Assembly (NCBI RefSeq): GCF_032118995.1
Contig: NC_092666.1
Coordinates: 12,288,501 to 12,352,500 of the forward strand
DNA length: 64,000 bases
From: Asterias amurensis
Taxonomy: Eukaryota > Echinodermata > Asteroidea > Forcipulatida > Asteriidae
Direction of reading: 5' to 3'
The notes under the pieces were generated by a model. The model was not told the DNA's origin. It saw only the letters and a list, made by a program, of their open reading frames with translations, and did no database searches. Below, in pieces: positions 6,221-57,736 of this stretch. Within the stretch, counting starts at the first letter, position 1. Every line of letters begins with the position of its first letter. Both the position numbers and the translations under genes were made by a program.

Positions 6221-9200
6221 TTAGCACATTTTAACCCCATGACCATCATTTCTCGACCGTTTTATTTCAATCACCGTGTCATACTGCTTGGTGTGGTGAT
6301 TATCTTCAGTCCACTCATTTCTCATGTTCTTATATATAACTATAGCCGCCAGAGACTGGTCATAGTGGTGATTATTCCTCCTAGAACCCTCCGGTGCAAT
6401 GCACTGTGGCTTTAACGCACATTCTAAGACAGGGTCGAGCAACTTCTCCCACAACACGGTACTGTTCGCGAGTAGGAGCCGCCCAAAGCTGAAATAAGGC
6501 GCATCGGACTTTGTGACATTGTAGAAGTCGTTTTTATCCAGACCCATTTCTTTGAACATCCCTTCGTGTGTCATGTAGTAGTAGTGTGGAATTTCCCCAG
6601 TGATTTTCGGGTCGAAGCCGAGCAGATGTGCCATAAAGCCGTGATGGAGATAAAGGTACGGCATGATTTTACTCAATGGTCCCTTAAAGCGGACGGATGC
6701 ATCGCCGTAGAAGATAGTACCAAACTCGGCCAATGTCTCCTGTAAGTTTGAAAAGAAGAAAGCAAAGGAAAAATAAATAGTTAGCAGATGGAACGAGGAG
6801 AGATGAGTGGAATGATCAGGTGGATGTGTGGTGGTTTTTTTTTGCCTGGCTGACGTGCTGTCGGTGAGAAGGAGGAGAGGAGGGGATCGGCACCGTATTA
6901 AGGAGGCACAGGCTGACGGTGGTTTGGCCATGTGGGGGAGAAAGAAGGATTAAAACTGGGTCAAGAGGTGTAACCAGCGTGAGGGCGGGCCCGCACCTGT
7001 TGGCCAACCGCGCAAGTCGTGACAGAGCTCTACTGTGTCAAATGGCTTTGAACTGCCTGAAGTCATTGCAAGGAACTCTAAGGACAGGGGGTCAAAGTGG
7101 AGAAGAGCCATGGGGAGAATACAGCCACAGTCAGTGCGCACCGTGCGGAAAAGTCCTATAATGAGCTTGGAGGGCACATTTTCAAAAAGTCATATCGTGA
7201 AAACCCAGCCATGTAAAAATACAACAACGTGACAGTATGAACGAGGAATGCTTAATTGTAATGACAAAAACCATAGGTGAATTTTTAATTGTTCAGAAAT
7301 AAGGAATTTCGGACTATAAAAATGATCATCGTTGTACAAAAATAACGGTCTCCGAAAAAGTCCCTTTTGTAGCATTTAACGAAATCGTGCAGACAAACCT
7401 TAATCATGATTATCTCAAAATGGCTTATTGGTATCCGTCCTGAAAGTTGTTTATATTAGTATGTGCTCCGGCCGCTCTACCATTCTGGCCCCAGTGGATG
7501 ACACCCCCTTGCCGATCCTAACTGACTGTCAAAAGGGGAACCCTGTTCCAGCCCCGTAGATGGCAGCGTTCTCCTTGGGTTGACGGCCCAAATCAGTTAT
7601 AGGTAAAGCCCCCACCTTGAAGCGACCGTTGCCTTGCCGTGATAGGTGATTTTTCATGAAACAAATATAATGGGTTTTTTTTATTTGCAGAAACAAGCGG
7701 ATCTATTTTATACTTACGCGCATTATAACAACCTTCCACACCATCGTATACAGAATCCTGGCGTGAGGCGGGTACTTGGAGAAGTCGAACCCACGCACGT
7801 GTACGTTGCAAACGGAGTTCAACTACAGTATAAGGAAACAGAAACTTAAATGTTACCATTGGCATCGCTAATGAAATGGTTGCACGTGTGAAGAGCTATC
7901 ATTGGCTGAGAGTGCATTGTGCGCAGCACTCGGACACGTTTCCATTGTGCGTCATCAAAGATAGCAGCATGTGTCTATACTCTTACGAAAAAAAAAAAAT
8001 ATATATATATATATAATTTTCACTGTTTTGTGATGCCAGTTTCGCTCTTTTGAGATTGAACGTCACGTATCACTCTTTTTTAGTGAAATTGTAAAGAACT
8101 TTACTCTATGACTCGTTGAAAGTACCCGTCTTTCCTCTAAAAAGAGCTGTCCACCATAACTATGACTCTTTGCAAGAGTGGTATGACGGACAACACTAGC
8201 GGGTTTTTTTTTTCGTGCTTTTTTTTCCTTTTTCTTTTTCTCTTCACCATTTTACCGTTCGCCGTTTGTGGAACAGACTCCCCTGCCACAACGGCGTCAA
8301 AGGGAATTCCTTCTGCTGGAGAACTTCTGTCCCCCTCATGGGAAAGGCGTGCTCTATTATTATAGGATGATGCTTCAAAAGAGGGCGCTATCAGAAGAAG
8401 TTTGTACATGTACACAGTTTGTCATTATGTGTGACCAAATTTCTCCGGGGCGGGGAATCTCCTGAACGACCTCTCGCCTCCCCAAAACGAAACAGAAACA
8501 CCAAGAACAAAATGGCAAACTCTCGATTGTCACCTTTTTGATGTTTTTCTTGTTAACTCTCAGGCAGTAGACTTACCAATATTGTTTTCAGTAATGCGCC
8601 ACCAATGAAAAGTTTAATACCAGGGGTCGATTAACTCTTTGTGTAATCCACCCCTGGTAAGTCTGCTGCCACCTAGCGTTCCAAAGTCTCTCATTAAAAA
8701 TGTCACTTGTAATTTATTACCTTTTTGATGTTTTCCTTGTTGAGTCCCAAGTTATAAACATAAATTTGTTTATGGGGCATGTGAGTCTGTGCCGATTTGA
8801 TCATTCCCATTGATTCGACTATATGGTTGTCGGATATTGCCGTCACTATCACAAGCCGATCGTAGAGGGCGTTCACATTCGTGTCCACATCCACGTTGAT
8901 CAGCGTTGGCTTTGTAATATCTGTGATTTGCAGGGGCAATACTACCGTTGTCTCATTGTGACCCCTGGAAGCGTTTGCTGCAGTAGTAGGCCTGTAGATG
9001 CTCTGGGGTGCAAGTTGTATTGTTTTGGACCTTCCGGACACATCTTGTTGCTGAAGGAACGTTCTGCTTGTTCTCATCACTGATGGCTTGTTATCCAACA
9101 AAACTACGCACATGTAAGAATAAAAACAAATGTTTGGTTATGCAGGTCTTCTGAACAGATCTGACGTCACAGGAGTATAGAAACAAAGCTTTGGTTTTGC

Positions 9201-17672: not shown

Positions 17673-20600
17673 ATGGAACTCCATGTGTTGGAACTGCTCC
17701 TTCCAGTGTTTGTGATTCTATCATTCGTCTACTACGATGTAGTGTGTGGGATTGAATTTCCAAAAGACCAACGAGAAATTGAGTTCCCTCCGAATGTTCC
17801 CAAGCAACGAGCCAGCTCGACTGTACCTATTGGACATCTCAGACCCTTTGGTGAGGACATAAATCATTTTAATAAATAAAACCAGCTAGGCCTATTTTAT
17901 AGACCATTTCAAAAACAAATTATCAATGCATTTTATTACGCAAAAAAAACAACAATAGCAATTATTAATACTCTATAAATAGAATATAAATAGTTTTGAG
18001 GTTGCGTTTGGAAGCTACTGTTGGTTGGAGAGTAGGTTGCGATAACGTAACCCTCCTCCCGACAGCCGCCTGGTGGCCGTCGGGAGGAGGGTTACGTTAT
18101 CGCAACTAGTTGGATGGAGAGTACTTCTAGAAACTATAAGTATAAGGCTCCCCTGGGGGAGCCTTATTATAGTTTAGCCTTATAGTTTCTAGAAGTAGTT
18201 TCTAGGTGATGATGTTGCCGGGGAGTGAGTTCCACCAGATGACAGTTCTTGGGAAAAAATTTGTTTGAGAATGACTGTATCCTACATGTCCTACCTGGAA
18301 TGATCTGATATATATATTTGGGAACTTTCCCGGTTTCTGTGAAAAAAAAATGTAGGTATACTCTAGCTTAAGACACTGAGAATTGCGAAGGTTGTGGGTT
18401 CGAATCTCACCCAAGTTGCTTGCTTGTGGTTTTTCCTTTACCCTTTCACCGTGAAATAATTAAGTTCACAGCAATTTCAGAACAAAAAATCCTACCTGAG
18501 TTGAATATTTGCTCTTACTTAGGCCAAATAAAAAAAAATTACCTGTTGATCGTCCGCATTTTTCTAAAAAGAGGAGGATGAGGGCATTTTTTTTTTTTTC
18601 GACGAGGGCCGCAAAGTATTTCAAATCAAACAGGCCACCAATTCTTTGGTTTGAACCCACCGCAAACTTACTTTATATCTATTTGTTGCATGAGGACCTA
18701 GGTTAACAGGGTCGGATTATGACACTAAACATATTCGCTGGTAGGCATTCACTATGTTTGTTTTTGAAACAGACGGTTACATGTGTTTGAGAGCATCACG
18801 TTAGATTCAGGAAAAGCCCCTAGGCCAGTTCTTTTGAAAGGATGGATTAAAAAATAACAAAAATATCAAAAAATAAAAAATGGATGCGGCCCCAAAAAAG
18901 GATGCAGGCTGAGATGATCAACAGTTTTTTTTTTTTTTTTTTTTTTTTTTGTGGCCTTACTACATGTAGCACCCGGCTCAAATATTAAAAAAAAAAATAA
19001 TGTTTGATCTTTTATTTATTTTGTACTCAGGTTATCAGAGAAAGCCAGAGGGAAGAGTCTTCGAATACAATGAATTCCTTCATCCAGCGCAGTTTCACGA
19101 ATCCCACGTCAGCAAAAAGAAACCAGTCGTCTTTCGCAAGGCAGTTCTAGAGTCCCCTGCTCTAAGAAAGTGGACCGACGACTATTTACTAGAGAAGTAC
19201 GTCAGTGAGCTGTTAAACTATAATTGTACTTCTCAACTTGTCCTGGTCTAGCATTTTGCCCCTGTCAAGACAAACTTTTCCTGTAGACTTAAATGCAGTG
19301 GACACTATTAGTAATTGTCTAAGACCAGTCTTCTCACTTGGTGTATCTCAATATATGCATAAAATAACAAACCTGTGAAATTTTGAGCTCAATTGGTCGT
19401 CGAAGTTGCGAGATAGTAATGGAAGAAAAAACACCCTTGTCACACGAAGTTGTGTGCATTCAGATGCTTGATTTCGAGTCCTCAAAATTACAAATCTGAG
19501 GTCTTTAAATAAAATTCGTGGAAAATTACTTCTTTCTCCAAAATTACTCCACTTCACATGCTTCAGAGGGAGCTGCTGCTCACAATGTTTTATACTACCA
19601 ACCTCTCCCCATTACTCGTTACCAAGTAAGGTTTTATGCTATTAAATATTTTGAGTAATTACAAATAGGGTCCACTGCCTTTAAAGATTTTTCAATGGAA
19701 GGGCACTTTGCAAAAATTAAAATGTCCTTGCAGACCTGATACTTCATTGGGGCAATGGAGGTGATGCCCCCAGGGCCCAATTTCATAGAGCTGCTTAAGC
19801 ACAAAATTTTGCTTAAGCAACAAAATCCTTGCTTAGTAAAATCAGATTACCAGCCAAGACTCAACTCAGTTGTTAGGCTAAGTAAACAACAGCTAAATAC
19901 CAGTCAAAGCAATGTTTATGGCATGAATTTTTGGCCAGTAACTTCCGAAAAGAAGCAAGCTATTTTCGTGCTTAAGCAAATTTTTTGCTTAAGCAGCTCT
20001 ATGAAATTGGCCCCTGGTCATTGCCTTGGTGCCCTTGACATCCTCCAGTTGAAATTTATAATTTTCTCATAGAGTGCATTTACCAATGACCAAGGAAAAA
20101 ATTCTTTGGTGCCGTTGCCCTTTCCAAATTGAAGCATGAAGGCCTGTTATTTTAATAGTAATATTAGCCTTAAAAAAAAAACCTCTAAAGGGTCGAAATG
20201 TCCGGCCATTAACTATTTCTTTTGCTTCAATAACAAAGATCCTTTCGGTTGGTAAGCAGTTTGCAACAGCTAATTCTAATTTCTGAATAATAATAACAGC
20301 ATTTCAGGGGCTTGAATTTTATCTATGAGAGGGCAAGGCCATTTTCATTTAAAAAAGGGCACTTCCATTGGAAAATCTATGTAAGACTGTTGGAATCCTT
20401 TGAAGGGGCACAAAGGCCAAGACCAGGGCAACAGATGCCATTGCCTCCATGGCCTTTGTGAAATTCTGGGCCTTGCATGTTTAGGGCACACTTTATCTCT
20501 TAAATATTCAAACATTTTTTCCATACGGAGTCCTCATTAGACATGAAAGTGGGAAAGCAAATGCCTAAGTCTCAGAGCCTAATTTGGGGTTGAAAAAAGA

Positions 20601-23600
20601 AAAATTGGCTGGTGTGGGAATTGAACCTCATTGGACCTCCAGATTAAGTCTTTAGTTTTTCTTCTTGTTTAACATTTTTTTTTAAGCTATGGAGATTTGG
20701 ATGTTATCGTTGAGAGAAAGAAAGAGAACAGAGAGGTGCGACCGAAGCGAATGAAGTTTGCTGAGTTCTTGAAGCGCTATCAGACGGAGAGTTTCTACAT
20801 TGTGTCTCTGATTCCACAGGAGATGTCCCATGAAGTCAAGGTACATTAAAGGATTTGGGTACTTTTTCAAAATGTCCACTGATTTACATTAAACTTACAG
20901 GGTTTGAAGATAATGATAGTGGAAAGCTTCCCTTCAAATATTACTAACTAAGGTTGTGTAGTATGAGAAAAATAAGTCACAAAATAATTTTGGTCTCATG
21001 AGACCAAAATTATTTTAGCATGTAAAATCCTCTTAACCAGTTATGATATTATACCAAAACCATAACATAACTGGTTAATACGTTTTTACATGCTAAAACT
21101 GAGACGAAAATTATTAATTTTACTCATTTCTCAAAAACTACAGCACCTCAGTAAGTAAACTTTCAAGGGAAGCTTTCTACTATCATAATCTTCAAACTGT
21201 GTAAGTTTAATGTAAATCTGTGGACATTGTGTTTTTTTTGTTAGGAAAAAGTACATATTATACCCTTTAATACAAATCAATTAGGCGTACATGGACACGT
21301 ACACGTGTAGTACATGTTTGGAAGTGATGTGTCCGAGTGGTTAAGAGCCCCAAATTCAACTCTGTGTTTCTGATCAGCAGATTGTAGGTTCGAGTCCCAG
21401 TCCGGACACTCGTGTCCTTTTAAAAGCAAGACAATAAAGAGTCAGTTCATGGTCAAAACATGTTTTTTTTTTTTATAATACTTTGTGGGTGGAAGGGCTT
21501 TGGGGTGCAAGTAAACAAAATTGCATTTTCAATTTAATATAGCCCATTGCCATGGTTGGGCCTACAGCTCATATTGTTTTATAGCAATTTTAGACCAATG
21601 TGTGGGTTTGAACTCCAACCCACCAAAAGGCCTTTTTAAGAGTCATTTCACAGAGAAATTTACTTGTGTCCATGGTAAAGAAAACAAGTATTTTTTGTAT
21701 GCTTTGTGGATCGTAGGGACTTGGGGCATCAAATAGTTCATTTTGTGTTTTGACCGTTTAAACCAAAAAATGTTTCAATAAAATTTATTTATTTTGGGTT
21801 GAACAGAGACAACATTACTTAAGATAACCTTGTTTGGGGGAAATTGAATTAGAATTTAAATACAAGAACACCCATTGAAAAGTTATAAATTGTTGTAATA
21901 ATATAACAGAGAATTTAATTAATTAACTCAATTGGTAGTGTATAAATCTGTGTGTGCCACGTGTACTTCCACACCTGTTGTCAACCGTTGCCATAGAATA
22001 AATCAATAAACTTTATGCATACAAGGCAGATTTTTCCTTGAACAGCTGTTACATGTTTACTCACCCAATACTAAAAACAGCAAACAAACACGTGTACAAA
22101 ATATGACTGGCATTTTTGCAAACAGGTTTTATCAAACGGTTGTATGGCTTTTGACTGGCACCCCCGAACAAAGGTATCTGACAAAATAGGGAGACCACCA
22201 ACATAGGGCTAAATAATTTAGTTGGTAGAATACGGCACATTTTATCTAGAGGTCATCGGTTCAAGTCTCACACTAGTACAAGGTCGAGCAGATTTAAAAA
22301 AAGAAAATAATGTTTTAGATATGTGGCCATAATATATGTGGCCATCATTGCTGAAGCGCAATCTTGGGGAAGTCTGTATTTTGCTCAAGGAGTGCTTGGC
22401 AGGCCCACCCAGCACCGCCCACTGTGGCTTCAATGCTGGTTCAAACACAAATTCTTTTACAGGCCACAAGGCCTGGTCCCACTGCAGCGATAACGAGAAC
22501 GATAATGATAAGGACGCAAAGAAAACGCATTCTTATGGTTGAATGAGCGTGTGCGTATTCTGCGTGGAGCAATTTTACCAATAGAATGCGTTCTCTTTAC
22601 GTCGTTGTCGTTATCGTTATCGTTATCGCTGCAGTGGGAAGGAGTCTAAATAATGATAATGGACACTTTTATAGCGCCGGTATCCGCTGCAAGTGGGGCT
22701 CATGGCAATGTTCTGGAAAAGAACAGCCAACAAGCAATAAAAGTAGCATAACATAATAAGAAAAATAAACTTAACTTAAAGGCACTGGACACTGTTGGTA
22801 ATTGTTGAAGACCAGTCTTCTCACTTGGTGTATCTCAACATATATGCATAAAATAACAAACCTGTGAAAATTTGAGCTCCATTGGTCATCGAAGTTGCGA
22901 TATAATGATGGAAGAAAAAACACCCTTGTCACACGAGGTTGTGTGCTTTCAGATGCTTGATTTTGAGACCTCAAATTCTAAACTTGAGGTCTCAAAATCA
23001 ACTTCGTGGAAAATTACTTCTTTCTCAAAAACTACGTCACTTCAGAGGGAGCCATTTCTTGAAGTGTGTTATACTATCAACCTCTCCCCATTACTCGTTA
23101 CCAAGAAAGGTTTTATGATAATAATTATTTTGAGTAATTACCAATAGTGTCCACTGTCTTTAAATGCTTCTCTATGTGAATGAGTTTTTAAACTGTTCTT
23201 GAATGATGTAAAGAGAGTTGGAAAGTTTCAAGGTTTCACAGTTTCAGTTTTAACTTTCCCCAACAGGTGCATGAAAGCCTTCTGTGTGGGACGTTCAAAC
23301 AACGTCTGCTGGAAACCAATTTGTGGATGAGTAGCGGCGGAACTGCCTCCCTCATCCATTATGATGCTGATCATAACATACACTGCCTCCTAGCTGGAAG
23401 AAAAGACTTCATAATGATTGATCCAAAATACTCACATGAACTCCGCATTGACGATCCGGTAAGATCAAATTATTTCGGAAGTAATTTGGTATATTTTTTC
23501 CATAACCATATACAAACCCTGCAAGTTATTTGTAAATCTGTGAACTTTTATTTTTTTTCTGTACCGAAAGTGTCCGATGGCTTTAAAGGATTTGGGTACT

Positions 23601-26600
23601 TTTTGTAACACAAAACACAATGTCCACAGATTTACATTAAACTTACACCGTTTGAAGATAATGATAGTAGAAAGCTCACCCTAAAGTATTACTAGCTGAG
23701 GTGCTGCAGTTTTTTAGAAAACGAGTAAAACAATGTCACGAAAATACGTTTTACATGCAAAAATAACAAGTCACACAACTTGTTTTACTCATTTTTCAAA
23801 AACTACAGCACCTCAGCAAGTAATATTGTGCTTTGTGTCCAACAAAAAGTACTCAGACCCTTTAAATCGATCATTGATGTCACAAATTCGCAACGAATAA
23901 TTATTCGTATTGAAAACAAAGATGTGACATCAATATTGGCTTCGCATTTGCATTTGCAGGAAGTATGAACCAGGCTTAAAGCCCAAATCTTCACAGATTT
24001 GTTATTTTATGCATTTTATGTTTGGATACCAGAGTGAGAATACTGGCCTTTTGACAATTACCGAAGGTGTCCAGTGCCTTTAAGTTCTTAATTTGGTTCT
24101 AATCTTTAACAGCATCTGATGACCGGCTCAGGGTTCTCTAAGCTGGATGTCGACCAAATCAACTTGTTCCAAAACCGTGATGTAGCTAATGTACCGTGGC
24201 GCTGGACAACACTAAAACCCGGCGATTGCATTTTTATTCCAGGAGGTGAGATGTCTACCTTTATTTTTTTTAAACCAATTAATTGTTTTAATCCTTTATA
24301 AATGCGAAAATAGAATTAGCTGCTGCAAACAACTTACCAACCAAATGGACTGATGGTATAAATGCAAAAAATAGTTTTGACCCTATCAGAGTCTTTCTCA
24401 AAACCTTGGAGAAAGACTCTGCTAGGGTTGAAACGTCAGGCCGTTAACTATTTTTTGCCTTTATAAATGCAACTCATGGCATGTCATGGCCAAGGGGATA
24501 AGAATACCGGACTCAAGCTCTTGTGTTTCTGATCAGCAGAGTGTGGGTTCGAGTCCTGGTAGTGACACTTGTATCATTTTAAAGGAAGCCACTTTACCAT
24601 TATTGCTGTCTTTCAGATGGGACATGAAGTCGTAGGTCCTGTGTGTTGTGAACATGTAAAAGAACGCAGTGCAATTATCGTAAAGAAAAGCGGTTCACCC
24701 TGGTGTTTCTCCTGGTTTGATTGGCTGCATATTGCTCCACAGCACTTTGTAGACCATTCCTGTCATAGTGCTAGTTTATTTTTAAAAAGAAGTAGGTCTC
24801 ATACTTCAACGCGTAGCTCTACACATGTAGGAAATTACAAACAGCGCATAGGGACAATACGTTAATATGCGCTGTATAAAATAATAATAATAAGCAGTTT
24901 TTATATAGTGCTTTTCACACCCGAAGCCCGTCTTAAAGCGCTCCAACATTATTACTCATGGGGCCGATTTCATAAAGAGTTAATACTATTTATAACTTAA
25001 GACTAGTCCTAGGAGATATTAAAAACTTAAGGCTAGTCCTAATATTAGGGCGAGTAACTCGTCCTAACTCCAGATAAGATGAGTCTTAAGTTTTGTGAAA
25101 TCCATCTCTGGTCACTGGGCCTTTATTCATTCCTTAAATCATCTCAGCTCCCTGGAGAGTATACAGCCTGTGAGTACCAGAGCTCGAGTTTTGTTTGTAA
25201 TTGAGATTTTGAAATAATTGTTTCTTCACACTAGGTTATCTCCACCAGGTGCGGTCCTACTCGCGTAGTATTTCAGCCACCATTCTGTTTGCATCAGCCC
25301 CTACGTTCGACAAATCAGATTGTGAGAATGCGACCTTTGAGTACACTGACCTGACCCAGGTCAGGGTCATGTGGACTTATAAGAAGGGGGATAAGGTAAT
25401 TAAAGAAGTTATAGTGTTTTAAAAGGCTGTGAACACTATTGGTAATTACTCAAAATTATTATTTGCATAAAACCTTTCTTGGTAATGAGAGCTGTTGATT
25501 CATGTAGTTTAAAACATTGTGATAAACGGCTCCCTCTGAAGTGACATGGTTTTCGGGAAAGAAGTAATTTTCCACGAACTTGATTTCAAGACCTTACAAT
25601 TAGATTTTAGGTCTCGAAATCAAGCATCTGGAAGCAGACAACTTTGTGTGACAATGGTGTTTTTTCTTTCATTATTATTATGCATATTTTGAGATACACC
25701 AAATGAGAAGACTGGTGTTTGACAATTACTGATAGTGTCCAGTGTCTTTAAAGGTAACAAAGATTATCATTTGGATTCGAACCCACACCCAACGGACAGA
25801 AAACCTTACTTGGTAACAAGTAATGGGGAGAGGTTGATAGTTTAAAACATTGTGAGAAATGGCTCCCTCTGAAGTGACATATAGTTTTTGAGAAAGAGGT
25901 ACGTTTCCATAAATTTGATTTTGAGACCTCAGAAATAGATTTTGAGGACTCGAAATCAAACAACTTCGTGTGACTTCTTTCATAGTTATCTGACAACTTC
26001 GACCACCAATTGAGCTCAAATTTTCTCAGGTTTGTTATTTTATGCATATGTTGAGATAGACCAAATGAGAAGACGGGTCTTTGATAACTACCAATAGTGT
26101 CCAGTCTTCAACCACTTATTGATTAATGCAACTGAAACTTCTACAGGTAAATTGTTTGACAACATCTTCATTCAGAGTGAGTAGGGATTCATGAATCGCC
26201 AAACACTTGATCCGCAAAATGTATCAAAACCCATGTTGAGATAGACCAAATGAGAAGACTGGTCTTTGACAACTACCAGTAGTGTCCAGTGTCTTTAAAG
26301 ACAGTGGACACTATTGATAATTGTCAAAGACCAGTCTTCTCACTTGGTGTATCTCAACATGTGCATAAAATAACAAACCTGTGAAAATTTGAGGTCGATT
26401 GGTTGCCGGAGTTGCGAGATAACTATGAAAGAAAAAAACACACTTGTCACACGAAGTTGTGTGCTTTCAGATGCTTGATTTCGAGACCTCAAGTTCTAAA
26501 CTTGAGGTCTTGAAACCAAATTCGTGGAAAATTACTTCTTTTCGAAAACTATGTTACTTTAGAGGGAGCCTTTTCTCACGATGTTTTATACCATCAACTT

Positions 26601-27579
26601 CTCCCCATTACTCGTCACCAAAAAAGGTTTTATGCCAATAATTATTTTAAGTAATAACCAATAGTGCTTACTGCCTTTAAGCAGCCGTATGAAATTGGCC
26701 CCTGATATTTACTTTTGATTTTCTCCTCTAGCTGATTGAGGTCGGCTACATGGATGCAGAAAGAATTCGAGACGATCTAATATCTCTCCTGAGGGAGACA
26801 GACAAGCTATCGGCCCATCAGTTTGGCTTATTCTTCAAAGGAATTACTCACGAAGACGACGAGGAAGTAGCCGCTGAGATGGAAAATATACCAATAGAAG
26901 CGTACGAGGTAATAATAATAATAATAACAACTGCATTTCTATAGCGCCTAACACCTCCAAAAGAAAGTCTCTAAGCACTCAGAGTTATGTATATTGTATA
27001 ATGAACTGACAGATATGTTTTGAGAAGAATCTTGAAACTTGAGATACATGTAGTGGTGGCTTGTTTAAAGTGTTGAGGTAGATTGATAATACTAGTTTGT
27101 TAGGTTTGTTTCATATGTAGTTTTTTGTATTTAAGTTGCCAGACACACAAGTCCTGAAGGCCATAAAAAGGTGTGGGATACATTCAACTATAAGCAAAAG
27201 TAGCAGTTCCAGCCGATTTTCAACCTTACGCCCGGGTAGTAGTTAAAAAAGCAGGACAGTTGCTTCTTTTCAGAATTGAGAAGTCTTCCAAAAAACTCTA
27301 CTCCTCGGTAGTGGAATGTATAGCAATACAGTTCTCTTAAGAACAAACTCTACCTGGCAAGTAGATATACACATGGTGTTATACCGCAAACCAAATAAAA
27401 TTGTATATTCTTTATTCCCTTTTCAGATATTTGCACTCTTCGACACCCAATCAAAAGGATTCATAACTCGGAAAGAAATTGAAGATATGGACATCGAGAC
27501 GCTGAAAGATTTTGCTCGAATTCTAGACCAACCAACCGTACCATATGAACCGACTGATGTAGAGCATGACGAACTTTAA
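17673..27579 (+). CDS. ER-lumenal JmjC (cupin-8) 2-oxoglutarate oxygenase with EF-hand and HDEL, 8 exons
   Basis: Exons are 17673-17850, 19031-19196, 20687-20840, 23267-23458, 24113-24245, 25235-25395, 26732-26908 and 27427-27579. All have GT-AG introns and matching phases, giving 437 residues. Residues 1-26 are a signal peptide (ELHVLELLLPVFVILSFVYY core). The JmjC domain spans about 75-300: NYGDL, then H197-Y-D199 as the iron HxD, K212 in GRKDFIMIDP as the likely 2-oxoglutarate lysine, and H278 in PGGYLHQV as the distal iron ligand. The catalytic site therefore looks intact. An EF-hand loop lies at 393-404 (DTQSKGFITRKE). The protein ends HDEL, a KDEL-receptor retrieval signal. Together these predict an ER-lumenal Fe(II)/2OG hydroxylase, possibly calcium-sensitive. 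The substrate is unknown. It resembles JmjC hydroxylases (JMJD5/JMJD8/FIH group) more than chromatin demethylases. Confidence 0.88.
18036..18106. repeat. Perfect 28-bp-stem hairpin
   Basis: 18036-18063 (begins GTTGCGATAACGTAACCC) pairs without mismatch with 18079-18106 across a 15-nt loop that itself pairs partly. It lies in intron 1 of the JmjC gene. A perfect long stem implies recent origin or conversion. Confidence 0.8.
18123..18196. repeat. Nested hairpin, 18-bp perfect outer stem
   Basis: ACTTCTAGAAACTATAAG at 18123-18140 pairs with 18179-18196. Inside is a second hairpin (AAGGCTCCCCTGGGGGAGCC). It sits 17 bp after the previous hairpin, and together they look like one foldback element. 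Confidence 0.75.
18521..18722 (+). repeat. Dispersed repeat family M
   Basis: GGCCAAATAAAAAAAAATTA, GTTGATCGTCCGCATTTTTC, AAGAGGAGGATGAGGGC, CAAATCAAACAGGCCACCAA, TTGCATGAGGACCT and AACAGGGTCGGATTA occur in the same order at 33236-33440. The ORF-like stretches inside are by-products. Diverged pieces with poly-T are at about 4206-4265 and 18870-18960. Confidence 0.6.
19289..19684. mobile_element. Family A element in JmjC intron 2
   Basis: TTAAATGCAGTGGACACTAT at the left, GGGTCCACTGCCTTTAA at the right, with the central hairpin. It begins 92 bp downstream of the exon 2 donor. Confidence 0.8.
19736..20148. mobile_element. Family G element interrupted by family F
   Basis: G-type flanks are ACCTGATACTTCATTGGGGC on the left and TCATTGCCTTGGTGCCCTTG to GAAGCATGAAGGCCTG on the right. 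The family F copy between them (19768-20017) has ends AGGGCCCAATTTCATAGAGC and GCTCTATGAAATTGGCCCCT. This is a nested insertion. Confidence 0.65.
20174..20480. repeat. Hammerhead-like element end and degenerate family G piece
   Basis: 20174-20290 contains GGGTCGAAATGTCCGGCCAT and GTTTGCAACAGCTAATTCTA, related to 24310-24470. 20298-20480 has G-like blocks (GAGGGCAAGGCCATTTTCAT, TGCCATTGCCTCCATGGCC). Confidence 0.45.
20846..21270. mobile_element. Family D element next to a splice donor
   Basis: TTAAAGGATTTGGGTACTTT to ATACCCTTTAA, with centre TTTTGGTCTCATGAGACCAA. The second palindrome (GTTATGATATTATACCAAAA) is specific to this copy. The element begins at the sixth base of JmjC intron 3 (donor AAG/GTACA then TTAA). 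Confidence 0.8.
21329..21450 (+). repeat. tRNA-Leu-like SINE head
   Basis: GTGTCCGAGTGGTTAAGAGC is an A-box region and GTAGGTTCGAGTCCC a B box. The head then runs into GACACTCGTGTCC and is truncated. I do not call it a tRNA gene, because the anticodon arm and 3' acceptor do not fold and the SINE body follows. The stretch 21450-22200 has nothing recognisable. Confidence 0.7.
22195..22275 (+). repeat. Second tRNA-like SINE head fragment
   Basis: TTTAGTTGGTAGAATACGGC (A-box-like) and CATCGGTTCAAGTCTCAC (B-box-like) are spaced as in a tRNA. Related fragments are at 18370-18420, 43085-43140, 56575-56640 (inverted), 57829-57890 and 62700-62775 (inverted). Confidence 0.45.
22477..22639. mobile_element. 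163-bp MITE with long inverted ends
   Basis: Left TCCCACTGCAGCGATAACGA, right TTATCGCTGCAGTGGGA. The inner arms are made of GATAAC/GTTATC steps. No clear target duplication is seen. It lies in JmjC intron 3. Confidence 0.7.
22776..23162. mobile_element. Family A element in JmjC intron 3
   Basis: TTAAAGGCACTGGACACTGT to GTGTCCACTGTCTTTAA, with the central hairpin complete. It ends about 105 bp before exon 4. Confidence 0.8.
23508..23865. mobile_element. Family E end abutting a family D element
   Basis: 23508-23586 is the E terminus (TTTGTAAATCTGTGAACTTT, ACCGAAAGTGTCCGATGGCT). Its TTTAA is also the start of a shortened family D copy (23583-23865, TTAAAGGATTTGGGTACTTT). The adjoining 23871-24083 contains an A-type right end (GGTGTCCAGTGCCTTTAAG) and a small palindrome. 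Confidence 0.6.
24310..24470. repeat. Palindromic repeat with hammerhead-like core
   Basis: ATAGTTTTGACCCTATCAGA and GTCTTTCTCAAAACCTTGGA are mirrored by GAGAAAGACTCTGCTAGGGT then TGAAACGTCAGGCCGTTAAC. The second arm has a GAAAC box after a short GAC/GTT stem, as in hammerhead-bearing element ends. Related pieces are at 20174-20290 and 38655-38720. Confidence 0.4.
24480..24895 (+). repeat. Near full-length tRNA-Leu-like SINE
   Basis: A-box-like TGGCCAAGGGGATAAGA and B box GTGGGTTCGAGTCCTGG come first. The body then has CTTTCAGATGGGACATGAAG, GAACGCAGTGCAATTATCG, GAAAAGCGGTTCACCCTGG, GTTTGATTGGCTGCATATTG and GTAGACCATTCCTGTCATAG. It ends in AAATAATAATAATAAG, which continues into a TTTATATAGTGCTTTTCACA tail block to 24960. 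This is the best reference copy of the family here. Confidence 0.8.
24962..25105. repeat. Short inverted-repeat element
   Basis: It has GGCCGATTTCATAAAGAGTT, the palindromic internal block ACTTAAGACTAGTCCTAGGA, the repeat ACTTAAGGCTAGTCCTAATA, then GCGAGTAACTCGTCCTAACT and AAGTTTTGTGAAATCCATCT. A related end (GCCGATTTCACGAAACGC) lies at 61513. Confidence 0.5.
25419..26680. mobile_element. Three consecutive family A copies plus unit L
   Basis: Copies are at 25419-25751, 25748-26110 and 26295-26680. The first two share a TTAA. Between the second and third lies unit L (26110-26230), as at 2521-2645. The third ends CTGCCTTTAAGCAGC, at the TTAA of a family F terminus (to 26706). All are inside JmjC intron 6. 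Confidence 0.7.
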
Positions 27580-27673: not shown

Positions 27674-28030
27674 TTAATGGAATATTACAGAATTGGTAAG
27701 AAAGAAAATCGTCAAGAACACAGAATTGCATAAAACGATGATAGTAGAAAACATCCCTTGAAATTATTCTGTCTGAAATGTCAAAATTTATGAGAAATAA
27801 ATAAACTTTCTTTCCTGCCGGGAGTTTATCGCTCAGTGAGCGTTTTGTTCATTGTGTTCAAATTGTGTGAATTGGTTTTTCACTTTTTTCTCGCAACCCA
27901 TGATGGACAATCAATCTCAAACTTCTACAGGTTTGTCAATTTATGTATATGGTGGATTACATAAAGTGCTTTTGTTTTGTTAGCAAAGTGCTTTTGTTTT
28001 GTTAGCAAAAACCAATTCTGTAATATTCCT
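27674..28030. mobile_element. Inverted-repeat element in the JmjC 3' region
   Basis: Ends GGAATATTACAGAATTGGT and ACCAATTCTGTAATATTCC. Near the right end a 23-bp unit (AAAGTGCTTTTGTTTTGTTA) is tandemly doubled at 27967-28012. It is preceded by TTAA. A related fragment starts near 12449. Confidence 0.65.
27796..27801 (+). other. Candidate polyadenylation signal of the JmjC gene
   Basis: AATAAA lies 217 bp after the stop codon, inside the inverted-repeat element 27674-28030. This is a sequence match only. A later AATAAA near 29024 is an alternative. Confidence 0.3.
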
Positions 28031-28135
28031 GTAATATTTATCTTACTCAGATTGGATTTTTATTGGAACTTTTTCCCTACTTACATCCCTAGTACTACTT
28101 AAATTTTTAAATTTTATAGAGTTTTTAGACAGTGT

Positions 28136-28508
28136 TTAAAGGGAAGGTACACGTTTTGTAATTACTCAAAACAAATATTAACTTAAAAACTGACTTGGTA
28201 ACGAGCATTGGAGAGCTGTTGATAGTATAAAACATTGTGGGAAACGACTCCCTCTGAAGTAACGTAGTTTTTGAGAAAGAGGTTTTGCTCACTAAAATAA
28301 TAAAAGACTTCTAGCTAGAACTCTTTTATTCCTATCTTAAAGCACACAAAGTCGTCCAACAAGGGTTTTTTTTCTTTCATTATTTCTCACAACTTCGATG
28401 ACCATTTGAGCCCAAATTTTCACAGGCTAATTATTTATGCTTATGATGGGATACACCAAGTGTGAACACTGGTATTTGACAATTACCAAACGTGAACAGG
28501 GCCTTTAA
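28136..28508. mobile_element. Family C TTAA-bounded foldback element
   Basis: TTAAAGGGAAGGTACACGTT to ACCAAACGTGAACAGGGCCT with a TTTAA end. Internally, GACTTCTAGCTAGAACTCTT forms the centre. The stretch 28509-29063 has nothing recognisable. Confidence 0.75.
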
Positions 28509-46837: not shown

Positions 46838-49800
46838 AAATTATATCAAAGAATGAAATATAATTGTAATTCTATGAATAATAATGAAATACAAGTCGAA
46901 GAGGGATTGCATTCCTTCCTACGTGATGGCATGCGGATCACACAATACATTCAAAGGTTGTATTGTTATTCAAATAAGTCCATGGGGGCGATGCCCGTAT
47001 ATAAAGGCCCGGACACAAGTCCTGAGCCATCTTTTCTGAGGTCATATAGTTTTTTGACCAAACAGTATTGGGAGGGTTCAAAACCCAGCAGCGGGCGGGA
47101 CCCTCTTCGACTTGTACTTCATTATTATTCATAGAATTACAATTCTATTTCATTCTTTCATATAATTTTTTAATTCTATTTCATAACATTCGTACAAGTC
47201 TTCAAAGGGATTGCATGTTCAAAGTAGATAAATAATCTGTGATGGTCAAAAAATGAAAAACCAGGTCAACAAACCGTATAAGGAACTCTTTATTTAACAT
47301 ATTACAAAGTATTACATACATGTACTAGAACTAAGCACTACTTTACCGAAGGATACTTCCTCGGTTGGCTTATTATAAAACTTGGCAAATGTACTTGCAT
47401 TTGACCAGTCGGCTGTTTTCAGAATTTCTTGGAGCTTTACCCCATGCGCAAAAGCTGCCGATGTAGCTGCACTGCGAAAACTATGAGCAGTGTAAACAGA
47501 GGGATCTATTCCCGCTGCACATAAAACGGCTTTCATCCATCGAGCCAACGTTCCAGTGGCTACTTTTTTATGTGGCTTCTTGGGTGATATGAACAGTTTA
47601 GTTTCCTCACTAACTGTTCTAAGCAACTCAGTACGATCCAAGTAATCGTTCAAAGTGCGGAGAACACATAACTTTGGGTTCTCATCAAATTTTGGTATAA
47701 CTATTTTGTTATGTCCCAATCCTCTTTTTGGGCAGTTCGTTTTCAATAAATCCAAAACGGAAATAACACAGGAATTAACTGATATATTCAAGTGACTAGT
47801 ATCTATACTAGCCAGCGTTTGGGTTCTTTGAGCTGATACAAGAGCTATTAGAGTTAAAAGTTTCTGACTTAAAACTAATAAAGAAAGTTCATTGTTAACT
47901 GGCAATGATTTTAAATAATCTAAAACAATTGAAACTTTCCATGTTTTTGAGTATCTCGGTTTCGTGGGTGTTGTATTAAATACTCCCCTCATTAAACGTA
48001 CTATTAGAGGGTGTTGTCCCGCTACATGTCCCTCAATTCTAGGTAGAGCTGAAGACAGAGCTGATCTGTAACTGTTTAACGTGGAATATGATTTTCCGTT
48101 TGAATGAGCCTTGGCTAAGAAATTTAGTAAGTCTGCTACAGTGGGAGATTTACTAAGTCTGCTACAGTGGGAGATAATGGATTAACTTGTTGTCCACTAC
48201 ACCAACTAGTCCAGCTTTCCCAAGCTGATTCATATTGCAGCTTTGTACTTGACCGCCATGAGTTTGCAAAGAGGTTGGAAGCTTCTGCCGAAATGCCTTT
48301 TGTTTTCCAACATTCCCTGATATGACCCATTCCAAGCGACCAGGTGCAGGTTTGGAACCGGCAGTAGTGGTTGATGCATCAGACAAAACTCTGGTAGTTT
48401 GATTGGGTTTGCAATTACCATCTGTAGCAACTGTGGAAACCACGGTTGGGCCTTCCATAGAGGGGCGATGAGAAGGCAAACAGGAGTTTGCTGTCGTGAT
48501 ATTTTGTCTAAAATTCTACAGAGCAAACAGAAAGGTGGAAAAATGTAAGGTGTTATACCAAACCACTGCATTGAGAAAGCGTCAATGGCCCATGCGTTAG
48601 AGTCTGATTTCCATGACACATAGCAATCTATCTTATTATTCATATAAGATGCAAACAAATCAACATGTATACAACATCCCAGAATATACGTGAGTTGAGA
48701 CCCAATTCTTTATTCAATTTCTTACGAGAAAGGTAATCTGCAGTGGTATTATCTACTCCTGCGATATGGGTTGCGGATAGAGTAATATTTCTTTCGATAC
48801 ACCAAAGGAATATTTTTGATGCGAGGTCATTTAAGCGACCAACAGTTCCCCCCCATTCTCGAAATATAAGACACCGCTGTGCTATGGTCTGATTTGATTA
48901 GAACATGAACATTATTGAGAGTTTCACAGAGAGTTAGCAATGCATTTTGAGCTGCCAATAACTCTAACATATTGATATGCAACTATTGTTGGGTTTTGGA
49001 CCACGTACCCTGTGTGTAAGAGTTGTCCGTTTCGGAGACTGCATCCCCAGCCGGTATTACTGGCATCTGTACAGATAACAATAGTAATGGGTGGTTTTTT
49101 AATTGACGATTTTACATCATCGCATGGAATATCCAACCACCATGTAGTCTCTTCTCTTATAGTTTGGTTTACTGCAATATTTGCATCATAATTGCCATAC
49201 TAATTTTTTAGGGTATTCGATTTGGCAGATTCGAGTTTTCGAAAATGCAATTTTCCTCTTGGAAAAGCATCAAATGTGGCAATAATCATGCCTATGAATT
49301 TTGCGAGATTCCGTAAAGTCAAGACTTTCTTTTCTAGAATTTGTGTTCCCTCCGATTTCAATTGTGTATTTTCGACTTTGGAACATTGATCGTCATTGGT
49401 TTGGATCCGATTTCAACGCCCAGGTACGTTGAATGGGTCTGCGGTATCAAGCAGGATTTTCCCTTGTTTATTTGGAATCCCAAATATTCCAATCACTGTA
49501 CCACAAAGGTTGTTTGTTCATTGCTTTCATTCTCCGATGAAGATGATCAGAATAAAATCGTCAATAAAAATTACCAACCTGCTGCAATGACTGGTTTCAT
49601 CACCTTTGTGAAAATTTGAGGGGCTGAGATCAGCCCGAAAGGTAAACAGGTTAATCTATAGAACTGATTCTCCCATGAAAAGCACAGATAAGATTGATCA
49701 ATCTCACTCATTGGAATTGCGAAGTACGCATCTTTCAGGTCAATGGAAGTAAGGAAGTCATTGGATTGAATAATTTCCTCAACTAGTTTTATATTTTCCA

Positions 49801-51400
49801 TTTTAAAATGTTCATATCTTACAAAAGTATTCAAATCTTTCAGATTTATAACCGGTCTCAGTCCACCAGATTTTTTAGGAATGAGGAAAATGTTCGATAT
49901 GAACCGACAGCTAGACCTTTTAGTGGGCTGAATTGCACCCTTTTGAAGGAGTTCTTTTATCTCCTGATTTACAGTCTGAATTTCCTCATCAGAAAACATT
50001 ATTCTTTTTGGTTTGACCGATTGTACAGGGCGTGCAATTAAATCATTTTTGCAGCCTGATATGGTGTTTAGAATCCACCCGTCGGAGGTAATCTGAGACC
50101 AATTATAATGGTGAAACTTTAACTGCCCGGCACAAGCCAAAATTGCAGTGGAGTCATGTTTTACATACCAGTTTTTTGTTTCAGTAAATTGCCCACTTGT
50201 AGCTGTTGCTGTAGGTTTATGGTGGGAAAACTTCCCACTATCACTTCTCCCGCCTCGGCGGTTGCCACTTAGGTAGTAGGGTTGCGTGTACAGCGGTTGA
50301 GTTATGTTTCCAGGGGTACGCCCTGTCGTGAAACCCTGGCGAAATCCACGGGTTCTTTGAGAGTAAGGCTCAAACCGACGGTTTTGAGTACTTTTGTTAT
50401 TTTCTGAATAAGTCAGCTTTCTACCGGCTTTAAAAGCCTCGGCAACCTGTTTCATTGATGAATTTAGATATCTTGTCCGAATAGTTTATCAGACACAGGT
50501 GTGCTCCTTGAGCACAAGCCCTTATACATAGGGTTTAGGCAGGGTTTCAAATCATCCCGTCGCTTCATACTCAATTCATATGATGCATTTCCCGACAGTG
50601 TAATGCCATCAAGGGCATACTGTTTGATTTTGTCGGTGTCTGCTACGGTACCCGCCTTGGCAGTGTCCCCCAGTTCACTCTGGGGGCAGATACAGCCGGC
50701 GCACTAGCCGGTGTCGCATATTTTTCTGCGATCTTTGTATATATCTCCTTTTTGATCGGTAGTGTTACCGCTTTGGTTGCTCTGTCGGCCAAATTTGAGA
50801 AAATTTCTGCGCCTTTGGCTTCAGAAGTCTTATAAATGTCTTCGCAAGACAATAAATCAAAATTATCATTCTGTTTGGGAGGAGAACTGGCTGCCACGTT
50901 ACTGGTCAGCTCAAAATTTTGGTTTGGGTCATAACAGTTACCCTGTTGCCCAACGAAATCATCAACGTCAAACATATTGTCGACTGGGATTGCAGCCGAC
51001 TGTTGGTCTTTTACCATGTTCGTCAGCATGTTTTGCATGCTGGCGATGGAGAGGGAAAGCTTATGTATTTCCGTTTAATTTGCCTGAAGCTTCACTTCTA
51101 AGCTTACATTTGGTGTAGTATCTTCATCACCAGCGGCTTGGCCGCACTGAAACTCAGACTCAATGTCTGACGGGAGCTCTAAATCATTCGATTTTCCATT
51201 TCGATGTCCGCAGTGCTGTTACACACGAAGAAAAGATGGCTCAGGACTTGTGTCCGGGCCTTTATATACGGGCATCGCCCCATGGACTTATTTGAATAAC
51301 AATACAACCTTTGAATGTATTGTGTGATCCGCATGCCATCACGTAGGAAGGAATGCAATCCCTCTGAAGACTTGTACGAATGTTATGAAATAGAATTGGA
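46838..51400 (-). mobile_element. DIRS-family tyrosine-recombinase retroelement, broken fossil
   Basis: Parts in minus-strand order are a gag-like region (about 50.5-51.1 kb), reverse transcriptase with RNase H (about 48.9-50.4 kb; IFLIPKKSGGLRPVINLKDL and CTDASNTGWG are visible), and a tyrosine recombinase (about 47.3-48.4 kb; AHSFRSAATSAAFAHG and YNKP near the active site). The ends are inverted: 46850-47045 against 51227-51398 (both carry GGGATTGCATTCCTTCCTAC). An internal complementary region (about 47098-47220) matches both outer tips, as expected of DIRS. It is broken, with roughly half a dozen disruptions. The arms are still very similar, so insertion was fairly recent. Confidence 0.85.
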
Positions 51401-57034: not shown

Positions 57035-57316
57035 TTGGCATGTGAACACCGCAACAAACGGACGCTTACAAATACGCCTGCAACCGTATATGGACATCCT
57101 ATCTTTCGTTTGTACTTATTTTAACAGCCCATTGGTTTTGTACACGTTTTTCCAACTGTGTACCTTTCCCGAACCGCGGACCATTATTGTACTCTTTTGT
57201 AATATAGGTCCCCGAATCGAATTTGTGTATCTACTCTTTATTAGCCACATCGACACCGCACACGCAGTTGGCACGTGAGCGCTGCAACACACGGACCCTT
57301 ACCACTACAGCCATGG
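57035..57316 (+). repeat. Duplicated 5'-flank segment of the GABA-B-like gene
   Basis: TTGGCATGTGAACACCGCAA and CAAACGGACGCTTACAAATA (about 57035-57078) resemble TTGGCACGTGAGCGCTGCAA and CACACGGACCCTTACCACTA (about 57269-57308), which runs into the start codon. The spacing is about 233 bp. Confidence 0.6.
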
Positions 57317-57558
57317 AGTTACCGTTTAGACCCGTATGGTCTTACCTCACCACGTTGACCTTACTGACTCTCACCACCACAGGGACCCTATCTCTCACCA
57401 ACATCACCTTGGGGGGTTTGTTTAGCCTGGGGGGCTCCGGCTCCGACTGGGATGGTACAGCTATTCTGAAAGCGGCTGAGATGGCCTTGATGCACGTGAA
57501 TAGCGATCCTGATGTACTGCCGGACTATTTCCTCAACATCGATACCAAAAACTCAAAG
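57313..57558 (+). CDS. GABA-B-type class C GPCR, first coding exon (partial gene)
   Basis: The exon has 82 codons and ends at a good donor (AAG/GTAAGATCC) in phase 0. Residues 1-29 form a signal peptide (SYLTTLTLLTLTTTGTLSL). Next come ITLGGLFSLGGSG, then AILKAAEMALMHVNSDPDVL and PDYFLNI. This is the start of lobe 1 of the Venus-flytrap ligand-binding domain in GABA-B-type and related receptors (compare LGGLFP...A-E-AL--VN--P-ILP-Y-L). The product would be a plasma-membrane receptor. The exact subtype cannot be fixed from one exon. An in-frame ATG at 57223 lies upstream, but the 57313 ATG puts the hydrophobic stretch in place. No further exons can be recognised to the window end, so intron 1 exceeds 6.4 kb. 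Confidence 0.75.
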
Positions 57559-57736
57559 GTAAGATCCATATTTTTTTGTTCGTAGTAAGATTACAAGTAG
57601 TTATTGTAGACAAAAACTCCATCTAAAGAACAATGAGCATTTCCAGCTAGTGTTGCGCACGGTGTACTGTGCTGTACGTGGCTACCAATCATCAACCCAT
57701 GTAGGGCCTACATGTACTCACATGTCATAACCACAG

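Follow-up and report, generated by a model that had tools for sequence, protein, structure and literature searches.

Hydroxylation of proteins in the endoplasmic reticulum (ER) is known from the collagen prolyl and lysyl hydroxylases, and also from AspH and P4H-TM. Among the JmjC oxygenases, JMJD7 is a (3S)-lysyl hydroxylase, and we know of no ER signals in this protein. JMJD8 has been described as the first JmjC protein to be located in the ER lumen; it has a signal peptide and N-glycosylation and clusters with JMJD7, HSPBAP1, JMJD5, TYW5, and HIF1AN (PMC5684140). According to that report, JMJD8 consists of a JmjC domain only and has a His in place of the Fe-binding Asp, and the authors suspect that it may be neither a hydroxylase nor a demethylase. 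Its activity is disputed, being suspected absent in one account (PMC5684140) and later reported as demethylation in another (PMC9820096). JMJD5 (KDM8) is an arginyl C-3 hydroxylase acting on RPS6 and RCCD1 peptides, with H321, D323, and H400 as Fe ligands and Y272, W310, S318, N327, and K336 as contacts to 2-oxoglutarate (2OG; PMC5862942). P4H-TM is an ER 2OG oxygenase in which an EF domain beside the active site binds Ca2+ in the ER range, and its authors state that, among the characterised enzymes of the superfamily, such EF motifs were found in this one alone (PMC7948501).

We analysed an 8-exon gene of the sea star Asterias amurensis (17673-27579, forward strand) and its 437-amino-acid product, referred to as the focal gene and the focal protein; positions are those of the 64-kb window, that is, the whole stretch of DNA analysed. 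The original prediction for this gene had placed most of the characterised JmjC enzymes in the nucleus or cytosol, which is fair, although the ER-luminal JMJD8 had already been published (PMC5684140). The gene structure, a complete metal/2OG site, a hydrophobic N-terminus, four Cys, an EF-derived tail, and HDEL can be read in the focal sequence, and the same plan recurs in the predicted products of diverged paralogues. The explanation that fits best overall is that the focal gene probably encodes a soluble ER-luminal Fe(II)/2OG oxygenase of the JmjC-hydroxylase type (Cupin_8, JMJD5/JMJD7-like).

Gene structure and active site

The 8 exons of the focal gene are joined in compatible phases, all 7 introns have GT-AG ends, and the spliced product of 437 amino acids has EHDEL as its last residues, as had been predicted for the exon structure and for the terminal HDEL. 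The start codon is flanked by A at -3 and G at +4, and an in-frame TAA is the second codon upstream. A splice-aware aligner of our own writing returned the identical 8 exons with the spliced protein as query, so that this agreement tests the tool and not the gene model. The features are as follows, all on the forward strand.

17673..17850, exon 1: start codon, signal-peptide-like N-terminus, and beginning of the mature protein
17673-17750, signal-peptide-like N-terminus (residues 1 to about 26): hydrophobic stretch, its end placed by eye
19031..19196, exon 2: N-terminal part of the Cupin_8/JmjC region (PVVFRKAV..WTDDYL)
20687..20840, exon 3: Y152, equivalent to JMJD5 Y272 (2OG C5-carboxylate)
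23267..23458, exon 4: Fe ligands H197 (23357-23359) and D199 (23363-23365); 2OG residues W186, S194, N203, and K212 (23402-23404); conserved C173 (23285-23287) and C206 (23384-23386)
24113..24245, exon 5: conserved C269 (24227-24229) in the GDCIFIP strand
25235..25395, exon 6: third Fe ligand H278 (25243-25245) and conserved C304 (25321-25323)
25327-25335, in exon 6: N-glycosylation sequon N306-A-T
26732..26908, exon 7: linker, which may hold a loop-less first EF-hand partner
27427..27579, exon 8: preceded by a phase-0 intron; stop codon at 27577-27579
27442-27477, in exon 8: EF-hand-like loop DTQSKGFITRKE, residues 393-404
27565-27576, in exon 8: HDEL, residues 434-437
27796..27801: AATAAA, a possible polyadenylation signal 217 bases past the stop codon

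Several other elements were observed in the window. A dispersed repeat of about 390 bases occurs in both orientations in the introns of the focal gene and just downstream (19289-19684, 22778-23163, 25409-26115, 26233-26680, and 28125-28283), its direct part-copies being 62-91% alike and its inverted arms up to 91%. Retroelement remains lie on the reverse strand at 47315-51074, with a reverse transcriptase ORF (49574-50485; RVT_1, E = 8.9e-12) and a tyrosine-recombinase ORF (47315-48181; Phage_integrase, E = 5.8e-9), which we take to be a DIRS-type combination. Also on the reverse strand, an ORF at 8706-9137 matches DUF1647 (32.8 bits; cut-off 25.7) and is likely an exon of another gene, and a 242-residue open frame at 6224-6949, for which Pfam gave no match at E up to 0.1, possibly contains a coding exon. 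On the forward strand, the ORF at 57208-57582 has a Met followed by an internal hydrophobic stretch, matches ANF_receptor weakly (E = 0.04, under the cut-off), and is perhaps the first exon of a receptor. The ER-stress element CCAAT-N9-CCACG had no match in the 64-kb window with up to one mismatch.

Pfam places a Cupin_8 domain (PF13621) at residues 78-293 of the focal protein (E = 1.2e-34; 120.8 bits against a cut-off of 27.4), while PF02373 JmjC (16.9; cut-off 24) and PF08007 (19.7; cut-off 22) are both below their cut-offs, and an NCBIfam search of the focal protein gave zero matches. JmjC/Cupin_8 and EF-hand were the Pfam domains named in the original prediction; Cupin_8 is above its cut-off, and the EF-hand models stay below theirs. 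The best solved relative is JMJD5, with the focal sequence (E = 1.2e-15) as well as with a profile of five family members, namely the focal protein and four paralogues (E = 1.6e-32). By profile it is followed by fly GH14974p (E = 1.2e-23), JMJD7 (E = 1.1e-21), and then TYW5 and FIH. Such relatives are diverse, TYW5 being involved in tRNA modification (PMC5684140), and would be compatible with an ER oxygenase that acts on a glycan, a lipid, or a small molecule. However, JMJD5 and JMJD7 outrank TYW5 by the family profile and JMJD5 is a protein hydroxylase (PMC5862942), and we regard a non-protein target as unlikely.

All 8 metal/2OG residues of JMJD5 listed above are kept in the focal protein (H197, D199, H278, Y152, W186, S194, N203, and K212), including the iron triad that had been predicted to be intact, and a ninth contact, L329 of JMJD5, is His. 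Across the five family members, the H/D/H triad, the Tyr, and the Lys are found in 5/5, the Trp and Ser in 4/5, and the Asn in 3/5. The 8/8 match to JMJD5 together with this conservation is the pattern expected of an active enzyme. The focal protein might instead be a non-catalytic ER pseudo-enzyme that assists folding or complex assembly, as suspected for JMJD8, and the interactors of ER-luminal JMJD8 suggest folding roles (PMC5684140). Yet JMJD8 has a His for the Fe-binding Asp, whereas the H, D, and H and the 2OG-binding Lys are intact in all five members of the present family; moreover, JMJD8 is described as JmjC-only (PMC5684140), and even JMJD8 has been reported as a demethylase (PMC9820096). 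We consider the pseudo-enzyme quite unlikely; going by its active-site residues, the focal protein differs from JMJD8 and most likely works as a JmjC hydroxylase in the ER lumen.

Paralogues and other Cupin_8 genes of the genome

The A. amurensis assembly (491,506,623 bases, 23 contigs) was searched with three of the five family proteins, and these searches return one common set of loci consisting of the focal gene and four paralogues, which lie on chromosomes other than that of the focal gene:

about 7838457-7851854, reverse strand: C18 paralogue
6927196-6935028, reverse strand: C9a paralogue, on C9
9102247-9111538, forward strand: C14 paralogue
1622023-1628679, forward strand: C7a paralogue, on C7

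Weaker Cupin_8 genes were also matched on C16 and C22. The identity between members is 32-46% in the Cupin_8 region, suggesting that the duplications are old. The four paralogues were modelled by the splice-aware aligner and inspection. In the focal gene, C9a, and C14, every joint is in frame with GT-AG sites, and the products end in HDEL, HDEL, and NDEL, respectively. The HDEL exon of C7a can be reached through several frame-compatible acceptors (21388, 21412, 21436, and 21460), and its frame-compatible join 15364/15749 adds residues that are absent from the five-member alignment. For C18, a join was found at 19971/21320, and no canonical frame-compatible join was found from the 21320 exon to the 22462 exon or from the EF-like exon to the 25479 exon; its tail HEDL, the best of three compatible terminal exons, is therefore only a candidate. 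In the five-member alignment, the C18 and C7a rows have junction residues that are guessed or missing, and the last exon is absent from the row of C18; the "exons" of 1-2 bases given by the aligner (C7a 15509 and 20229; C18 20553, 22020, and 24725) are artefacts of the guessed residues. Overall, 3/4 paralogues reach a DEL tail in frame and 4/4 keep the hydrophobic N-terminus.

These models bear on whether the focal gene could be wrong at one end, with exon 1 or exon 8 foreign to it and the enzyme cytosolic. All four paralogues have the hydrophobic N-terminus and the JmjC sequence in a single open frame, EF-like exons come after a phase-0 intron, three paralogues join a DEL tail in frame, and the cysteine pattern fits the ER, all of which makes a wrong end very improbable. 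The focal gene model has independent support from its paralogues.

The same genome has a separate JMJD5 gene on C15, found as pieces of two exons (E = 8.3e-23). Relationships were examined in a tree of 13 rows and 70 columns, built from two hand-picked and hand-aligned blocks with one residue trimmed from one row; it omits FIH (C21) and the loci L033, L034, and L036, and has no JMJD8 row. The C15 gene pairs with human JMJD5 (98/98) apart from the family, and the possibility that the focal gene is the JMJD5 of this genome was rejected. The branch with the five members on one side has a support of 82/95, short of the tool's threshold for regarding it as shown, and a JMJD7-like row falls on the family's side of this crude tree with weak support. 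By their motifs, we take a gene on C9 to be a separate JMJD7-like gene, and some other Cupin_8 hits among 33 stretches are presumably HSPBAP1-, TYW5-, FIH-, JMJD7-, JMJD6-, and JMJD4-like genes; no gene was identified as a JMJD8 orthologue. Another Cupin_8 gene, L032 (C22:11614001-11617500, reverse strand), has a cysteine-rich stretch, CRRPKCESIIFSGQCHQSMEGCYC, ahead of the oxygenase domain, and its joined exon pieces match best fly GH14974p (E = 5.9e-18) and JMJD7 (E = 1.3e-17); L032 is possibly a second secretory JmjC type. Prokaryotic and viral relatives were sought with one profile scan each, which gave 14 and 53 pattern matches, respectively, none of them confirmed by tblastn, and a bacterial or viral origin is not supported at the sensitivity of those single scans.

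Predicted signals for the endoplasmic reticulum and the EF-hand-like tail

A hydrophobic N-terminus is present in all five members, and in the four paralogues it lies in the same open frame as the JmjC start with no intron between. By a hydrophobicity score that is our own measure and not a trained signal-peptide predictor, the focal N-terminus was equalled by 3 of 80 arbitrary ATG ORFs of the 64-kb window, and none of 1826 internal segments of the five proteins scored as high as the N-terminus of any member. The focal N-terminus contains a Glu and lacks Lys and Arg. At the other end, the tail is HDEL in the focal protein, C9a, and C7a, and NDEL in C14. Past C25, in the presumed signal peptide, the focal protein has exactly four Cys (C173, C206, C269, and C304), and Cys occupies these columns in 5, 5, 5, and 4 of the 5 members, respectively; conservation of these four cysteines fits what is expected in an oxidising lumen. 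Each of the five members has at least one N-glycosylation sequon. The ER residence put forward originally is supported by the hydrophobic N-terminus, the HDEL, the four conserved Cys, the sequon, and the same plan in the paralogues.

In a pairwise alignment, JMJD5 has Val and Ile at the columns of C206 and C269. Among the 13 rows of the tree alignment, the C206 column is also Cys in the JMJD7-like and C22 rows, and only the rows of the five family members have Cys in the C269 column. Since N327 and L329 of JMJD5 sit on strand III (PMC5862942), C206 can be placed on strand III. C269 is on the strand preceding that of H278. Strands III and VI are adjacent in the double-stranded beta-helix, making a C206-C269 disulfide plausible.

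The EF-hand-like exon comes straight after a phase-0 intron in 5/5 members, that of C18 being without an in-frame link to the JmjC exons. The C-terminal part is 19-37% identical between members, and this part of the five-member profile matches EF-hand proteins, the best being CDPK3 (E = 7.4e-4). In the focal protein, EF-hand_6 (18.6 bits; cut-off 25) and EF-hand_1 (14.3 bits; cut-off 25.4) are both below their cut-offs, so that the EF-hand call rests on position and homology. The focal loop DTQSKGFITRKE has D1, Q3, K5, T9, and E12. The loops of C9a and C14 have D1, D3, D5, T9, and E or D at 12, also under the Pfam cut-off; the match of C9a to EF-hand is weak, and C14 matches EF-hand_7 with E = 2.9e-5, under the cut-off. 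Two paralogue loops, DEDQDERVTLSE and DNDNDGLLTQED, are a better fit to calcium than the focal loop, yet are under the cut-offs. In the order focal, C18, C9a, C14, and C7a, the loop residues are D/D/D/D/D at position 1, Q/N/D/D/S at position 3, K/D/D/D/R at position 5, and E/E/E/D/E at position 12, the last letter for C18 being approximate because its loop has a one-residue insertion. Pfam gave no EF-hand match for C18 or C7a at E up to 1; for the second EF-like exon of C18, none was obtained at E up to 0.1. The EF-hand claimed at the outset is therefore EF-like by position and homology but, being below both Pfam cut-offs, appears degenerate.

A stronger form of the preferred explanation, and compatible with it, would be a calcium-gated ER oxygenase in which the EF-hand acts as a switch. 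P4H-TM provides a precedent as an ER 2OG oxygenase whose EF domain binds Ca2+ in the ER range (PMC7948501), and C9a and C14 have Asp at EF positions 1, 3, and 5. On the other hand, Gln3 and Lys5 occur in the focal loop, which is under the Pfam cut-offs, C7a has Arg at position 5, and the family is variable in its loop residues but invariant in the triad and the 2OG-binding Lys. We give calcium gating a small chance. The earlier idea that the focal enzyme is tuned by calcium is at best weakly supported, given Gln3, Lys5, and the scores below the Pfam cut-offs. C9a and C14 could plausibly bind calcium; for the focal protein, such binding is doubtful.

Proposed mechanism and comparison with known systems

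With the ER-luminal JmjC hydroxylase as the preferred explanation, the signal peptide would bring the chain into the ER, where two disulfides would form, one between C206 and C269 on the neighbouring strands III and VI and the other between C173 and C304. HDEL and the KDEL receptor would return escaped enzyme. The enzyme would hydroxylate side chains of secretory proteins using Fe(II), 2OG, and O2, and the likeliest chemistry would be a JMJD5-style C-3 hydroxylation of a basic residue, given that JMJD5 and JMJD7 rank among the closest solved proteins. The EF-derived tail may pack by the active site or make a dimer surface; in the focal protein its role is probably structural, with calcium bound weakly or not at all, and two paralogues may respond to calcium.

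We tentatively propose, as a possibility that we hold with less than even confidence, a family of animal JmjC hydroxylases, undescribed so far, that would be stabilised by disulfides, retained through HDEL, and equipped with an EF-hand tail, and that would hydroxylate, perhaps at C-3 of Arg or Lys, secreted or extracellular-matrix proteins, some members being calcium-gated. If true, this would be the first JmjC hydroxylation known in the secretory pathway, and the family would have expanded to five genes in a sea star. With its intact active site, ER signals, and EF-hand tail, such a family would open an unstudied modification of secreted proteins in animals whose connective tissue is unusual, and the five genes, with clear active-site controls and natural variation of the EF loop, make the question testable.

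Compared to the known systems, the focal protein is closest to JMJD5 among solved relatives, sharing all 8 checked metal/2OG residues, and differs from it in that the alignment match stops at the end of the JmjC domain and that Val and Ile stand in JMJD5 where the focal protein has C206 and C269. JMJD7 ranks below JMJD5 in the profile search (E = 1.1e-21). The possibility that the focal gene is JMJD8, compared here by its published description only (PMC5684140), was rejected on D199 and the added EF-like tail. Among open-access papers, we found no description of a JmjC protein with an EF-hand and an ER retrieval signal, and we expect that automatically annotated database entries probably exist. 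The likeness to P4H-TM lies in an ER 2OG oxygenase being combined with EF-hands; P4H-TM belongs to another oxygenase family, is anchored by a transmembrane segment, and has an EF domain with two Ca2+ sites inserted before the DSBH core (PMC7948501), whereas the focal protein has its EF-derived tail at the C-terminus and ends in HDEL. An identity with P4H-TM was rejected, the domain being Cupin_8 and the EF-like tail C-terminal. As predicted from its genes, the present family has an intact JmjC site together with ER signals and an EF-derived tail at the C-terminus.
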